NCBI GenBank assembly: GCA_016125165.1 | Contig: WGMH01000001.1 | Span: 1 to 64,000, forward strand | Direction of reading: 5' to 3' | Source of the DNA: Alphaproteobacteria bacterium | GTDB lineage: Bacteria > Pseudomonadota > Alphaproteobacteria > Micropepsales > Micropepsaceae | Length of the DNA: 64,000 nt | Shown: positions 50,478 to 56,487 of the stretch, piece by piece | Layout: each line of letters starts with the position of its first letter | Position numbering within the stretch: the stretch's first letter is position 1 | Made by a program: the position numbers and the translations under genes | Notes under the pieces: model-generated | What the model was told of the DNA's origin: nothing | What the model saw: only the letters and a program-made list of their open reading frames with translations | Database searches by the model: none

Positions 50478-51152
50478 TCAAGCGGATTGCCGCCATGTGA
50501 CATATTCGGCGATCGGCGCCCGCTCGCTGATCAGACTGTTCACAGGCGCGGTATCATCAGCATGGCCGATTGCCATGCCGCAAAAGACGATCTCATTGGC
50601 GGGCACTTCAAGATATTCCCGGATTACAGAGTGATGCACGGCCCATGCTTCCTGCGGACATGTATGGAGCCCATGTTCGCGGGCCAGAAGCATGATCGAC
50701 TGCATATACATGCCAAGGTCCGCCCATTGGCCCTGCTGCATCTGCCGGTCCATCGTGAAGATGAGGCCCGCAGGCGCACCGAAGAACTCCCAATTCCCCG
50801 AGAAGAATTTGAGGCGCGCCATCTTGTCTTCGCGCGGGATTCCCATGGTGGCATACATGGCTTCACCAATGCGGAAGCGGCGCGACTTGTACGGTTCTGT
50901 GAGCTCCGGCGGATAGATATGATACTCCGGTGTTTCGCCCATCGGACTTGTTTTGCGCTTCTCCGCCACGCGGCGCACCAGTTCGTTGCGCGCATCTCCC
51001 AACAGAACGTGAACGCGCCACGGCTGAAGATTGCCGCCCGAAGGCGAGCGTGCCGCCGTTTCCAGAATCACTTTCAGCGTTTCCGCCGATACCGGATCTG
51101 TTTTGAAGGCACGGACGGTTTTTCGTGTATGCAGCGCTTCGGAGACTTTCAT
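50478..51152 (-). CDS. nitroreductase family protein
   Basis: 224-residue FMN-dependent NAD(P)H oxidoreductase. RKTVRAFKTDPVSAETL (FMN phosphate Arg) is near residue 10, ARSPSGGNLQPWRVHVL near 33, and GLHTCPQEAWAVH near 160 is typical of the NfnB/BluB-like group. The ATG at 51152 is chosen because GAGGA then has normal spacing; an ATG two codons earlier abuts the RBS. Reduces nitroaromatics or quinones; physiological substrate unknown. Confidence 0.9.
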   Translation of the reverse strand: MKVSEALHTRKTVRAFKTDPVSAETLKVILETAARSPSGGNLQPWRVHVLLGDARNELVRRVAEKRKTSPMGETPEYHIYPPELTEPYKSRRFRIGEAMYATMGIPREDKMARLKFFSGNWEFFGAPAGLIFTMDRQMQQGQWADLGMYMQSIMLLAREHGLHTCPQEAWAVHHSVIREYLEVPANEIVFCGMAIGHADDTAPVNSLISERAPIAEYVTWRQSA

Positions 51153-51203
51153 GGTCATTCCTCGATGGCGGATGCGCATTGAAGGCAGGCGACAGTGCAT
51201 CCG

Positions 51204-51689
51204 TCAACGCAAGGCGGGCTTGCGTGGCGCGCGGTCGCCGAACCACCACACGATTGCCGTTACGGCAGCAAAGACCAGACTGTCAGCGACATAGGCCCGG
51301 TCGATATCGCCGGGGTCCATGGCGAAGAATGCGCAGGCGAGGAACAATGCCAGACCGAGCGTGAGCGCCGGCCTTGTAAGCGCACGCACGGCATTCACCC
51401 AGGGATAAGAATTTGCAACACCGCCTTCAGCAGACACCGACGCCGTCAATCCGCCCCAGGAGCCCTGGCTCTGCGCGATCTGCATTTCCTGTTCGGTTTC
51501 GGCGGCCTTCGCCTGCATCTGCAGCCTGAGCAGATCGGTTTCATGGCTCCATTTTGCCTGTTCCTGCGTGAATGCCTGCCTGACCTCATAGATACCGACG
51601 ATCTTTGTCGCGACGTTTCCGAGAAGGCCGAACAGCCCACCACCAAACGCCGAAGCGCCGGTGCCTAAAAGAGTCCCAAGGATATCCAT
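51204..51689 (-). CDS. phage/GTA holin-like membrane protein
   Basis: 161 residues: a glycine-rich amphipathic N-terminus (GTLLGTGASAFGGGLFGLLG), a charged coiled-coil middle (about 30-75, rich in Gln/Glu) and two hydrophobic helices at the C-terminus (TLGLALFLACAFFAM and ADSLVFAAVTAIVWWF). The layout fits the holin-of-3TMs family used for gene-transfer-agent release. The start at 51689 overlaps the peptidase gene by 25 bp, as lysis genes often do. Confidence 0.65.
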   Translation of the reverse strand: MDILGTLLGTGASAFGGGLFGLLGNVATKIVGIYEVRQAFTQEQAKWSHETDLLRLQMQAKAAETEQEMQIAQSQGSWGGLTASVSAEGGVANSYPWVNAVRALTRPALTLGLALFLACAFFAMDPGDIDRAYVADSLVFAAVTAIVWWFGDRAPRKPALR

Positions 51690-52087
51690 TTGGCCTTGCT
51701 CCTTTCGCCATAGAACCAGTGCGCGGGACGCCCCCGCGTATCGAGATGCAGAAATGTCTGGCCGAAGCCGAAGCCGGTGAAGCCGATGCGGCGTGCTTCC
51801 TTTGCGAGGCGGGCGGCGTCGAGCCCGGCAAGCGAGACATCGCATGCCAGGTGCTTGTGCATAGAAAGTGGTGCACCGCCGATGCGCGCGTTGTGAAGCG
51901 CGCAGCGATGGCCCGAATTGATGCGCAGCGGCGCGTTCATGGCGACGCGGAGCCTCTCGATGGCATCGAGCGCTTCCGCCCAGATGCAGAGATCGCCGCA
52001 ACAGGGGCAGGCGATCTCGGCCGGAACGAAGTGCGGCCAGCGTCCGGCATCCCAGGCAGGATGGTCTGCAAGATTCGCAATCTGCAT
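51665..52087 (-). CDS. M15-family peptidase (phage endolysin-type)
   Basis: 140 residues starting MQIANLADHPAW. The M15_3 (D-Ala-D-Ala carboxypeptidase-like) zinc site is visible as SGHRCALHN near 58 and the late FLHLDTRG near 112, with SMHKHLACDV between them. An extra CPCCGD cysteine cluster near 27 is common in this phage/GTA group. It would cut cell-wall peptides for particle release together with the adjacent holin-like protein. Begins 6 bp after the fusion gene ends. Confidence 0.82.
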   Translation of the reverse strand: MQIANLADHPAWDAGRWPHFVPAEIACPCCGDLCIWAEALDAIERLRVAMNAPLRINSGHRCALHNARIGGAPLSMHKHLACDVSLAGLDAARLAKEARRIGFTGFGFGQTFLHLDTRGRPAHWFYGERSKAKWISLGLF

Positions 52088-52092
52088 GACCG

Positions 52093-53478
52093 TCAACCGA
52101 CGATCCAGTTCGTGCCATCGCTCACTACCGGAACCTTGTTCGCGCCGCCGCCGGCAACCGTGGACGCAAACGTGGTCGCTGTCGCATCCGTCACGAATGC
52201 ACGCGCACCGGCCCCCACCGTTCCGGCGGAGGGCAGCGCAGAGACCACATACGATCCCGTCCGCACATAGCCGCCAAAAAAGCCATTGGCGAACCGGAAT
52301 GATGACGAGCCAACACTGCGTGTGTTGTCCGCCTCGGGCATGACGTCGCCACCAACCGTCAGGACGCCGTTGTCCGTCGATGTATTGAGCAACGTGTGAC
52401 CGGCATTGGTGAGTATGCGCCCGGTGCTGAACGTGATGGCAGCACCCGCGGTGCCGCTCGCCGCGTATTGCTCGACATAGGCCCCGCCAGAGGTGAAGCG
52501 TGCGCGCCACGCGTAGCTGCTGGAGCGATAGACCACATTCGTGCCGTTGAAATAGCCATTGAAGCTGAAGCCGCCGGAATCGTTCGGCGACATTTCAATT
52601 CCAACATACCCATCGCCATGAATCCGGACCGGATAGCTTGAACTTGTCCCGAAGACACTGTGCCCCTTGACCTGAAGCTGGGGCGTTCCTGTTGTCGGGT
52701 AGGACGTGGATTCGAGCGCGGAGGCAGTGTTTACGTAGATATTGCCATTGCTGCGCACGATGTTGAGTGCGCCATACCAGGTTGACCCATCCGGCGAAAC
52801 CTTGAAATGGAAATCGTCATCCCCCGTGAGACCGATCTCGGCGCGGCCGGAATAACCCTTCTGATACAGAAGTGACGCGCTATCCGCGGATGCGGCCTTG
52901 TTGATTTTCGCCTGCACGCCATTACCGACATTGTCGAACAGCACAGCCGAAGATTTGACGGCGAATTTGTTGGTTGCATCGGCGGAGGTGTTCACGCCCA
53001 CCAGCGGAACATTCTGCAGCACCATGATGGCGGCATAGTCCACCCAGGTTGCGCCATCGTAGACGACAAGAACGGATTCATCGATGACGAATACGCTGAG
53101 GCCCGCGCGGCGGTTCGAGGGTTCGAACGTCGCGCCCGGAATCACGCGCTTCAATCCGGATTCGCCTTCGATCATCACTTGCCTTGCATCCGCATATGTT
53201 GCGGCGAGGAGCGCCACGCGGCGCATTCGCCCCTCGCGGATACCTTCTGCGATCCACTCAGCGCCCGCTCTTGTTTTTCCGGCGCCCCGTCCGCCGAGGA
53301 ACAGCCAAATGCGCCAGTTTCCTTCTGGCGCAAGCTGCTCTTCGCGCGCCCAGAAGGGCCAGAAGTCGCGGAAGAATTGCGCTTCGTCATGATTCAGACT
53401 CTTCAGAAACAATGTGCGCCGGTCCACCGGCAGCGATTCGAGCAAAGCGGCGCTCAAGGGTAATGCGGATTTCAGCAT
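52093..53478 (-). CDS. in-frame fusion: terminase large subunit N-terminus to DUF2793 tail-type C-terminus
   Basis: 461 codons without a stop. Residues 1-123 are a GTA-type large terminase start: DEAQFFRDFWPFWAREEQL and Walker A GGRGAGKTRAGAEW near 62-75, then the adenine-motif stretch ending FEPSNRR. Walker B and the nuclease domain are missing. From residue about 125 the sequence is that of a DUF2793/tail-tip protein: SVFVIDESVLVVYDGATWVD, VGVNTSADATNKFAV, GRAEIGLTGDDDFHFKVSP, followed by a Gly/Ser/Thr-rich fibre-like part and NTRSVGSSSFRFANG. Junction near 53100-53115. Packaging activity must be lost; the C-terminal part could still fold. A real deletion is favoured, but an assembly join must be excluded. 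Confidence 0.82.
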   Translation of the reverse strand: MLKSALPLSAALLESLPVDRRTLFLKSLNHDEAQFFRDFWPFWAREEQLAPEGNWRIWLFLGGRGAGKTRAGAEWIAEGIREGRMRRVALLAATYADARQVMIEGESGLKRVIPGATFEPSNRRAGLSVFVIDESVLVVYDGATWVDYAAIMVLQNVPLVGVNTSADATNKFAVKSSAVLFDNVGNGVQAKINKAASADSASLLYQKGYSGRAEIGLTGDDDFHFKVSPDGSTWYGALNIVRSNGNIYVNTASALESTSYPTTGTPQLQVKGHSVFGTSSSYPVRIHGDGYVGIEMSPNDSGGFSFNGYFNGTNVVYRSSSYAWRARFTSGGAYVEQYAASGTAGAAITFSTGRILTNAGHTLLNTSTDNGVLTVGGDVMPEADNTRSVGSSSFRFANGFFGGYVRTGSYVVSALPSAGTVGAGARAFVTDATATTFASTVAGGGANKVPVVSDGTNWIVG

Positions 53479-53794
53479 CGTTTCTTCCGGCGTTCTGCTT
53501 GCGGGTGTTGCGGGCTTCGGCCTTGTGCATCAGCCGGTCATGCGTGCGCTCGAGGCGTTCCAGCGTGCGCGCATCCCGCTCGCGTCCGGCGGACGATACG
53601 TCGGTGAAATCCTTGTTCTTGACGGATTCCAGGCGCAGCAATTGTCGGTTCAGCTCTTCATAGAGTCGCTTGCTCATTTGATCCATCCATCCTTGGGGAA
53701 TGTCATTGAGATCATCGGTGTCGTTGACCGCCCAGTACCCGCGCGTGGAACGCGACAAGTGCCCGCGGCCCGTTGGGGGGCAGGTTGCTGTCAT
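53387..53794 (-). CDS. small terminase-like/GTA gp1-like protein
   Basis: About 135 residues from an ATG at 53794 (weak RBS); shorter starts at 53686 or 53677 (MSKRLYEELNRQLLR) are possible. Highly charged helical sequence (RDARTLERLERTHDRLMHKAEARNTRKQN) directly upstream of the terminase, the place of the small terminase subunit in GTA clusters. Its end overlaps the terminase start by 92 bp in another frame, longer than normal. Identity rests mainly on position. Confidence 0.5.
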   Translation of the reverse strand: MTATCPPTGRGHLSRSTRGYWAVNDTDDLNDIPQGWMDQMSKRLYEELNRQLLRLESVKNKDFTDVSSAGRERDARTLERLERTHDRLMHKAEARNTRKQNAGRNDAEIRITLERRFARIAAGGPAHIVSEESES

Positions 53795-54288
53795 CTTCAG
53801 ATCGCTATTGTGGGGATGTAGGTGAAATGGGGTGAGCAGCGTTGCGCTACAAGAGGCAGGCGAAAGTTTTTTCAAAAAAAATTGGATGCGGATAGCAACG
53901 TCGGGATTTTCCGTTTGCATGCAATGTGTTGAGCATCATCCGCGTGACGGAAAATTCTTCGGATGCACGATGTTTTTGGGCGCGCGTTTTCGAATCTTGC
54001 GCAAGTGTGATCGAAAATTTTTTTGATCAACCCACCCTCTCCCCCTCCGGGGGGAGAGGACCCGAGAGCACGCTCAATCCCCCGCGACAGGAGATAATTC
54101 GATGGAAGAATATGGGTACGCATTCGCAACACCCCGAGACATGGTTGATCAACGGGATCGTGCGACTAGATGAGGTGCAGCAATTGAGCCTGCTTTAGCC
54201 GACATAGGCCGCTCGCTTAACATCCTGTCATCCGCCCTGCCCCTTAAAGCCTTGAATCCGCCGCAAATATCGGTCATTGGCGCTGCCT
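53795..54288. other. 494 bp non-coding, partly AT-rich gap
   Basis: Between the phage remnant and the penicillin-binding protein. The part from about 53860 to 54030 is AT-richer than its surroundings, with runs such as a T6-C-A8 stretch near 53870 and a T8 run near 54020; it may hold the promoter of the remnant. A GC-rich hairpin follows at 54036. A 28-codon open frame at 54112-54198 has no good RBS and is not called. I see no tRNA or attachment site. Confidence 0.5.
54036..54059. repeat. GC-rich hairpin (CCTCTCCCCC / GGGGGAGAGG)
   Basis: Ten-bp perfect stem with a four-base loop TCCG. No T-tract follows on either strand (the T-run lies before it on +, giving an A-run after it on -), so it is more like the dispersed intergenic palindromes common in proteobacteria than a rho-independent terminator. 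Confidence 0.5.
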
Positions 54289-56487
54289 ATGCCGGGGTTC
54301 GATTTGCGTGCGCTGTTGGCGGGGGTCTGGAGCTGGATGGAACACCATCCCTGGCTTGGCCGCGCTCTGTTCATTGCGAGCCTGTGCGTTTCCCTGCCCC
54401 TCGTCGCTCTTGTGCTGCTGCCATCCGTGCTTGGCCTGTTCGCGCCCCGGCTGGATTCCGGCCTCGACCTGTATTCGGTGAACCGGCCCGTGGCGTTCAC
54501 CTTTCTGGATGTCAAAGGCAATGAAGTGGGCCATCGCGGCGCCATCGTGGGTGACCGGCTGAAAATTTCCGACATGCCGGCCTATGTGCCTGCCGCCTTC
54601 ATCTCCATGGAAGACCGCAGCTTCTACGAGCATGGCGGCATCGACCCCAAGGGACTGATCCGCGCAACGATATCCAATCTGCGCGCCGGGCATGTGGTGG
54701 CGGGTGGCTCCACCATCACCCAGCAGACCGCAAAGATCGTGTTCACCAATTCCGAACGCTCCTATTCGCGCAAGCTGGAAGAATTGATGCAGGCGGTGGC
54801 GCTGGAGAAATCGCTCAGCAAGGAGCAGATCCTCACCGTCTATCTGAACCGCATCTATCTGGGATCCGGTGCCTATGGCGTGGATGGCGCCGCGCGCGTC
54901 TATTTCGGCAAGTCGGCCCGGAAGCTGACGCTGCCCGAAGCAGCCATGCTGGCAACGCTGACAACCGCGCCTTCCATCTTCTCGCCGCGCCGCGATCTGG
55001 CCAAGGCGCAGGCGCGCGCCACGCGCGTTCTGAATACGATGGTGGAGACCGGCGCAATCACCCGCGCCGAGGCCGATGATGCCATCGCGCATCCCGCCGT
55101 CATCACCGACCGCACCATTACCGACGCGCGCAACTATTTTCTCGATACCGCCGCCGATGAAGCGCGCAAGCTCATCAGCACCGGCGAAGGTTCAAGCACG
55201 GTCGATCTGGTGGTGAAGACGACGCTGGAACCGAAAATCCAGGAAGCGGCGCGCAAGGCGCTGGTGCGCACCCTCAACAAGCGGGGCAAAGCCTCCAGGG
55301 CCAGCGAAGGCGCGGTGGTGGTGATGAAGCCCGATGGCGCGGTCTCGGCGCTGATCGGCGGCAAGGATTACGGCGAGAGCGTTTTCAATCGCGCCACGCA
55401 GGCACGCCGTCAGCCTGGGTCATCGTTCAAGCCGTTCGTCTATCTCGCCGCCGTCGAGAATGGCATTTCGCCATGGGACATGCGCGATGATGGCCCGGTG
55501 GACATCGATGGCTGGGCTCCGACCAATTATGGCGGGCGGCAATATGGAACGCTGACGCTGGCAAGCGCGCTGGCGCATTCGGTGAACACCATCACCGCCT
55601 CGCTGGCGCAGGAAGTGGGCGTGACGCAGGTGGTGGAAGCCGCGCAGCGTCTGGGCATCACCTCGCCACTGGAAACCAATGCCTCCATTGCGCTTGGCAC
55701 CTCGGAAGTGACACCGCTGGAAATGACCACCGCCTATGCGGTGTTCGCCAATGGCGGGCTGAAAGTCGAGCCCTATTTCGTGACCGAAGTGCGCGATACC
55801 GGCGGTCATGTTCTCTACAAGCGCAGAAGCCCGCAGGAACGGCGCGTGGTGGCCAGCCATGTGGATCAGGACATGACCTACATGCTCAATCAGGTGATGG
55901 TGGAAGGCACGGGGCGCGGCGCAGCACTCGCCACCTATCAGACGGCGGGCAAAACCGGCACCACGCAGGACTATCATGACGCGTGGTTCGTCGGCTTCAC
56001 CGCCGACTATGTGGCCGCAGTCTGGGTGGGCAACGACGATTCCTCGCCAATGAAGGGCGTGACCGGCGGCTCGCTTCCTGCCGCGATCTGGAAGGACACG
56101 ATGACCGCGGCAGAAAAGGGCCATCAGCCCACCGCGCTCGCCATGTCGACACCGCCGGAAATCCTGCCGCAGGATGGAACCATCTTTCTCAACAGCGGTG
56201 TCGACACCGAATCCGGCGGCGTAACAGTGGATGGCGTGGATTTGGATCAATCCGCGCAACCGCAGAAGCCACAGCGCTCGCGCAATTTCTTCGACTGGCT
56301 GTTCGGGCGCGGCGGCGACGAGGAAAGCAACGACAGCGCGTACGACCAACAGCCGGAACGGCGCGACAGGTTCGATCACCGCAGCAATTCACACGATGAT
56401 GAAGATGATGACAGCGAAGCGCCGCGCACGCGGAACTATCGCTGGCGCGACCGCGAGGATTCGCGCGATGGCTCCTCGCCCGATTAG
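54289..56487 (+). CDS. class A penicillin-binding protein (PBP1A-type)
   Basis: 732-residue bifunctional peptidoglycan synthase: short cytosolic N-terminus, one membrane helix (about 25-50), then GT51 glycosyltransferase and transpeptidase. GT51: catalytic Glu in SMEDRSFYEHGG, GGSTITQQTAK, and KSLSKEQILTVYLN. Transpeptidase: SSFK (Ser378), HSVN and KTGT (555-558). The C-terminal 80 residues are a low-complexity acidic/Arg/His tail (HDDEDDDSEAPR). The ATG at 54289 is chosen over a TTG four codons earlier; neither has a strong RBS. Confidence 0.93.
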   Translation: MPGFDLRALLAGVWSWMEHHPWLGRALFIASLCVSLPLVALVLLPSVLGLFAPRLDSGLDLYSVNRPVAFTFLDVKGNEVGHRGAIVGDRLKISDMPAYVPAAFISMEDRSFYEHGGIDPKGLIRATISNLRAGHVVAGGSTITQQTAKIVFTNSERSYSRKLEELMQAVALEKSLSKEQILTVYLNRIYLGSGAYGVDGAARVYFGKSARKLTLPEAAMLATLTTAPSIFSPRRDLAKAQARATRVLNTMVETGAITRAEADDAIAHPAVITDRTITDARNYFLDTAADEARKLISTGEGSSTVDLVVKTTLEPKIQEAARKALVRTLNKRGKASRASEGAVVVMKPDGAVSALIGGKDYGESVFNRATQARRQPGSSFKPFVYLAAVENGISPWDMRDDGPVDIDGWAPTNYGGRQYGTLTLASALAHSVNTITASLAQEVGVTQVVEAAQRLGITSPLETNASIALGTSEVTPLEMTTAYAVFANGGLKVEPYFVTEVRDTGGHVLYKRRSPQERRVVASHVDQDMTYMLNQVMVEGTGRGAALATYQTAGKTGTTQDYHDAWFVGFTADYVAAVWVGNDDSSPMKGVTGGSLPAAIWKDTMTAAEKGHQPTALAMSTPPEILPQDGTIFLNSGVDTESGGVTVDGVDLDQSAQPQKPQRSRNFFDWLFGRGGDEESNDSAYDQQPERRDRFDHRSNSHDDEDDDSEAPRTRNYRWRDREDSRDGSSPD

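Follow-up and report, generated by a model that had tools for sequence, protein, structure and literature searches.

We found that a single long open reading frame (ORF) and its neighbours in the window (the whole 64,000-nucleotide stretch that we analysed) are very probably the remains of an RcGTA-type gene transfer agent (GTA) cluster, which collapsed through one internal deletion that left two gene stumps in frame by chance. We attribute the locus to internal deletion of a GTA cluster because relatives carry the intact cluster at the same site and because the missing genes are absent from the assembly; the same two results bear out the collapse of a GTA-like cluster proposed in an initial annotation of this DNA.

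The ORF (52093..53478, minus strand) keeps 461 codons open and joins, in one frame, the N-terminus of a large terminase (TerL) to the C-terminal part of a tail-fibre protein of the DUF2793 type. Passages of PMC10883770 identify DUF2793 as the tail-fibre protein of RcGTA particles. Codons 1-124 (53107..53478, minus strand) derive from TerL, as judged by sequence, profile and comparison with relatives, and retain Walker A (GGRGAGKT). The rest (52093..53106, minus strand), assigned from PHROG matches and relatives, comprises the end of the DUF2793 domain and the C-terminal region. Pfam Terminase_6N matched residues 59-130 of the ORF with 29.5 bits against a curated cut-off of 22 (profile positions 1-73 of 215), and a PHROG large-terminase family matched the N-terminal part with an E value of 1.2e-5. 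TerL homology stops at residue 124, upstream of what we take to be the Walker B motif, whose position was set against the TerL sequences of relatives. The ORF thus has two hallmarks of TerL, the Terminase_6N match and Walker A, and lacks Walker B and Terminase_6C, the RNase H-like nuclease domain, much as initially described. The C-terminal part matched three phage families, all of unknown function: phrog_13925 (5e-23), phrog_25093 (1e-16) and phrog_15388 (3e-14). Of the profile checks suggested for the two parts, that for TerL succeeded, but the DUF2793 profile (PF10983) scored 13.1 bits, below its cut-off of 27, and covered only the last 23 of its 87 positions, so that the DUF2793 assignment is one of homology to the DUF2793 genes of relatives. 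Genome searches with the chimera led from residues ~1-125 to intact TerL genes and from residues ~125-250 to separate tail genes, in agreement with the proposed in-frame joining of two genes. In a phage collection each half likewise matched genes of its own, terminases as far as residue ~124 and hypothetical proteins from residue ~126 (best 20 of 59 records), with the exception, among these 20, of two Microbacterium phage terminases that aligned with residues 40-229 at 31.5% identity.

Several genes from the edges of the cluster persist around the chimera. Directly upstream of the terL start lies a small-terminase-like ORF (53387..53920, minus strand), which has no Pfam or PHROG match and is 31-45% identical to the ORFs directly upstream of TerL in relatives; by position and identity it is a putative GTA small terminase (g1). 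On the other side are an endolysin-like M15 peptidase (51665..52087, minus strand), recognized by a profile match and synteny, whose start codon as placed is 5 bases past the chimera stop, and a holin-like ORF (51204..51689, minus strand) that overlaps the end of the M15 gene. The latter matched PHROG 6637, a family of unknown function, with an E value of 8e-11, and scored 11.3 bits with the GTA_holin_3TM profile, below the cut-off of 24.8. The survival of small-terminase-like, peptidase and holin-like genes on either side, noted in the initial annotation, therefore stands, although of the three only M15 exceeds the curated cut-off of a profile, the other two being identified by synteny and weaker matches. 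Farther out are a penicillin-binding protein (PBP) gene (54277..56487, plus strand) and a nitroreductase gene (50478..51200, minus strand), which in relatives flank the GTA locus on the TerL side and the tail-fibre side, respectively.

We searched 61 genomes, namely the window's own, 36 of the same genus and 24 of other genera of the class. The chimera as query had matches in 37 of them, and only in the window's genome did a single match run over both parts. In six of the 36 genus relatives the two halves share a contig and strand, at a distance of 14.4-17.1 kb in G010, G021, G027, G028 and G034, and of 11.3 kb in G006, which has a deletion of its own. A wider search of 385 genomes, with at most four candidates scored per genome, gave matches in 104 and added spacings of 19.4 kb (G084) and 17.5 kb (G069). 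Separation of TerL from DUF2793 by the capsid and tail set, expected for GTA clusters, is thus what relatives display, with the halves 14-19 kb apart. In G021 the gene order is PBP, small terminase, TerL, the intervening genes, DUF2793, M15, holin, nitroreductase, Crp, PepSY and response regulator, which is the order of the window with the cluster inserted between. Profile searches identified the intervening genes of G021 as a complete RcGTA-type set: the head genes are a two-domain TerL, portal, S78 protease, capsid, connector, head completion and gp17, and the tail genes are tail tube, GTA-gp10, tape measure, DUF2460, hub, GTA_TIM with Rcc01698_C (g15), DUF2793 and M15. All fifteen genes from TerL to DUF2793 could be mapped in G010, G021, G027, G028 and G034, with frame changes or stops breaking TerL in G027 and g15 in G028 and G010.

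The comparison with related genomes therefore places the remnant at the same chromosomal site as the full RcGTA-type cluster, among similar flanking genes. PBP recurs at the TerL side, and nitroreductase, RcnB, PepSY and response regulator at the other, with M15 and the holin-like gene just inside that edge. Retention of the flanks is uneven: a Crp-type gene turned up in G021 alone, and neither M15 nor holin could be located in G010, G012, G027, G028 and G034. In most mapped relatives 0.3-12 kb separate PBP from the small terminase or TerL (0.4 kb in the window), but in G062 PBP and g15 are about 40 kb apart; G064 has a 20-kb stretch beside PBP without GTA genes and its cluster on another contig. 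In two loci, L130 (G015) and L131 (G030), neither the head-completion gene nor the gp17-like gene was matched between connector and tail tube, possibly through an older common loss or strong divergence. Separately, TerL matches fell in frames of 257-259 amino acids at G170:C1:432171 and G273:C72:3471, both of family f111, which are possibly split terL genes.

The fused gene is not an established standard family in the genomes searched: no second terL/tail-fibre fusion was found among the 61 genomes or, with at most four candidates scored in each, the 385, and Walker A and the tail part fell in one match only in the window's genome. In the 385-genome search tail matches began as early as residues 104 (G387) and 107 (G241), and several TerL matches reached residues 126-136, none spanning both parts. 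In viral contigs, 18 of 19 loci matched the tail part only, starting at residue 118 or later, and one matched TerL only; of the 69 genome_contigs loci, one (L060) matched residues 42-247, and proved to be a different fusion followed by a separate intact DUF2793 gene.

To see how often such loci break, we mapped the genes of G021 on 52 stretches, then on the 69 genome_contigs loci, the 19 viral contigs and 5 further stretches. Five further chimeric GTA junctions emerged, two in frame and three out of frame. The in-frame ones are a TerL|g15 fusion at L060:2380-3450, in a 356-codon ORF, and a hub|g15 junction in G030; the others are capsid|g15 in G006, connector|g15 in L069 and connector|DUF2793 in L075. 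L060 belongs to an uncultured Rhizobiales bacterium and has lysis-type genes, nitroreductase and a response regulator downstream of the fusion. Chimeric collapse thus recurs in GTA loci, and among the genomes and loci searched the exact terL/tail-fibre fusion is seen only here. Together with the window's genome (G000), three of six junctions are in frame (P for three or more = 0.32 under an expectation of 1/3), a count that leaves out L046, with a gap inside g15, and the relics without a chimeric GTA junction (G012, G020 and G022). A bias towards in-frame junctions was accordingly rejected, the frequency being near chance.

We then compared rates in aligned sequences, using only matches that covered at least 70% of the query and expressing distances relative to the PBP gene. 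The TerL stump had a ratio of 1.081 (21 pairs) against 1.269 (210 other pairs), the third slowest of 22, and broke none of 26 invariant columns among 24 N-termini (23 relatives; other genomes broke 0 or 1). The DUF2793 core had a ratio of 0.928 against 1.179 (second slowest of 11) with 3 of 40 invariant columns broken (others 0-6), M15 0.768 against 0.704 (sixth of seven) with 4 of 59 broken (others 0-3), and holin 0.825 against 0.966 (fourth of nine) with 2 of 50 broken (others 0-6); the broken columns of the DUF2793 core and M15 may reflect some erosion. The control, the response regulator, was also low (0.226 against 0.271, second slowest of nine). The cause is a somewhat fast PBP gene in the window (mean identity 0.622 against 0.654), and these ratios therefore show the rate of the stump to be not raised rather than slow. 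An earlier estimate anchored on the window's own sequence favoured the window by construction, and the aligned version points in the same direction. The TerL stump, incapable of terminase function, thus looks as well preserved as functional genes, probably since the collapse is recent, which is the simplest reading, or since the stump is still constrained. 'Recent' must be read against a long branch, for the closest genome by PBP is only 68% identical. Among the three causes that the initial annotation named for the frame having stayed open, recency agrees best with the data, as the stump is not eroded, and an assembly artefact is unlikely (see below).

The third, that selection keeps the chimera, either for the fused gene or for an in-frame join that preserves spacing, would account for the 461 open codons, for rates not raised in the TerL part or the DUF2793 core, and for the M15 start 5 bases past the chimera stop. 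A recent event, however, accounts for the same data; moreover, the TerL part lacks Walker B and nuclease, in-frame junctions are no commoner than chance would allow, and none of the relatives searched has the fusion. We therefore regard upkeep by selection as unlikely.

The junction itself lies at 53106..53107, within 1-2 bp, between codon 124 (53107) and codon 125 (53106). In an alignment with 14 TerL genes and 11 tail-fibre genes of relatives, the chimera tracks TerL through AAC CGC CGC and the tail-fibre gene from GCG GGC CTC. At the join the relatives' TerL reads CGC GTN in 8 of 14, and the tail-fibre gene TTC GCN in 3 of 11 (TTC GCG in G034). If the parent genes read like these relatives, perhaps 2 bp (CG) were common to both sites, in register; an overlap this short would point to illegitimate recombination. 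The short R-A-G coding microhomology that the initial annotation had suspected at the join was not borne out, the overlap that the relatives suggest being only those ~2 bp. A 30-base string across the junction had no match in viral_contigs.

We also considered that the junction is an error of assembly, in which the ends of an intact GTA cluster were misjoined and the middle was lost. The genome is indeed an assembly of 14 contigs (3.04 Mb, 95.6% complete), and the junction is absent from every assembly searched other than this one. Assemblers, however, usually join over overlaps far longer than 2 bp, the GC content is continuous around the join (0.57-0.63 in 1-kb windows), and analogous junctions occur in other assemblies, three of them in named records of other projects (L060, L069 and L075). 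The missing genes also match no contig: capsid, GTA_TIM, portal and Terminase_6C gave no match in the assembly at E values up to 0.1, and neither did the g15 protein of G021 at E values up to 1e-10, the DUF2793 profile, or either half of the chimera as a second copy. A misassembly is thus very unlikely. These searches also led us to reject an intact GTA elsewhere in the genome; portal, capsid, the TerL nuclease domain and GTA_TIM/g15, by which a functional RcGTA-type cluster would be recognized, are all absent from the assembly. That the locus is a degenerate ordinary prophage, to which the resemblance of its terminase and tail pieces to phage proteins might also point, is highly improbable, given a chromosomal site common across the genus, the presence in the homologous cluster of families named after GTAs (GTA_TIM, Rcc01698_C and GTA-gp10), and a TerL part 51-68% identical to 20 TerL genes of the genus but at most ~52% identical to those of phages (best 20 of 59 records).

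We favour, then, the collapse of a GTA cluster by a single internal deletion, which, sized from the relatives, would have spanned about 14-19 kb between sites with only ~2 bp in common. The 3' portion of terL would have gone, along with g15, every head and tail gene and the 5' portion of the DUF2793 tail-fibre gene, and the remaining stumps would have come to lie in frame by chance. With portal, capsid, the TerL nuclease domain and g15 gone, the cell should build no particles and produce no GTA. The chimera would be a by-product, most likely without GTA function, and open mainly owing to the recency of the event. By being in frame, the join preserves the spacing to M15 and the holin-like gene downstream, which may be of some value.

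Other members of the genus have lost more, or different, parts of the cluster. In the stretches fetched, G012 keeps only the last 63 residues of g15 and DUF2793, G022 retains TerL as far as residue ~331 together with the small-terminase-like ORF, and G020 gave no portal or protease match; in G022 the sequence behind the cut TerL (L134, ~1-1660) has no GTA matches. Eleven PBP-adjacent loci contain no GTA gene. In nine of them the site is closed, with PepSY and response regulator near PBP (G001, G008, G013, G035, G065, G071, G075, G076 and G079), and in the remaining two (G014 and G024) the far flank was unrecognized. In a low-stringency search of the eleven loci, GTA genes were matched only weakly (E 0.12-0.49 among the matches listed), and g15 had no match in any of the eleven genomes. 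Overall, g15, fragments included, was found in 31 of 60 genus genomes and in 24 of the 42 of good quality; most have one match or none, and G082 has three, on C1, C3 and C20. At the emptied site of G076, by PBP the closest genome to the window's own, there is at L112:683-2131 a 482-amino-acid ORF of repeated units, which we presume to be TPR-like.

On a PBP tree of 43 genomes, built by a quick method and labelled partly from incomplete contigs (five genomes being unlabelled), the window's genome falls on a starred side of 27 genomes, to which all but one of the 21 cluster-labelled genomes belong. Its place within that side is weakly supported, the nearest genomes being G076 (empty) and G022 (partial). 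The tree requires five changes for the five partial genomes and four for the eleven empty ones.

The mode of GTA loss bears on why bacteria keep GTAs. According to a published cheater idea, the loss begins with receivers that do not give, and intact, partly deleted, fused and empty states at one site form a series in which this model can be tested. The window's genome keeps comEC (G000:C8:288361-289218). Among good-quality genomes, all 24 that have a g15 match carry ComEC (PF03772), as do 12 of the 18 that lack one (Fisher p = 0.0035); the figures for all 60 genomes are 29 of 31 with g15 and 20 of 29 without (p = 0.02), where fragments count as present and kinship is uncorrected, 10 of the 11 empty genomes lying on one side of the PBP tree. 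The loss of particle genes with retention of comEC fits the cheater idea weakly, comEC being found also in those 20 of 29 genomes without g15. As a speculation that we hold to be rather unlikely as a whole, the genus might show GTA loss at every stage at one site, the window's genome being a new non-producer that keeps DNA-uptake comEC and a test case for the cheater idea; in its boldest form, in-frame collapses would be favoured early, silencing the particles without disturbing translation of the neighbouring lysis-type genes. The locus also cautions annotators not to take a terminase match in an open frame as evidence for a phage or a working GTA.

Compared with the RcGTA-type head-tail cluster of alphaproteobacteria, the window shares the locus, the order of the end genes and the homology of TerL and the DUF2793 tail fibre, but has lost everything between TerL codon 124 and the C-terminal part of the tail-fibre gene. 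RcGTA encodes a small (g1) and a large (g2) terminase, as set out in passages of PMC6854486; the window still has a small-terminase-like ORF immediately ahead of the terL start, and its TerL, unlike g2, is cut before Walker B. Pseudogenization and loss of GTA clusters are described in passages of PMC10883770, and the window likewise carries an inactivating change, in a genus with complete losses; those passages make no mention of an in-frame terL/tail-fibre fusion. Nor is such a GTA fusion named in the passages of PMC6854486 and PMC7947584 or in the titles and beginnings of abstracts surveyed, a sample that says little of the whole literature. A decaying GTA cluster is of a known kind, to which this locus, a clean snapshot of the death of a GTA, and the surrounding series usefully add.
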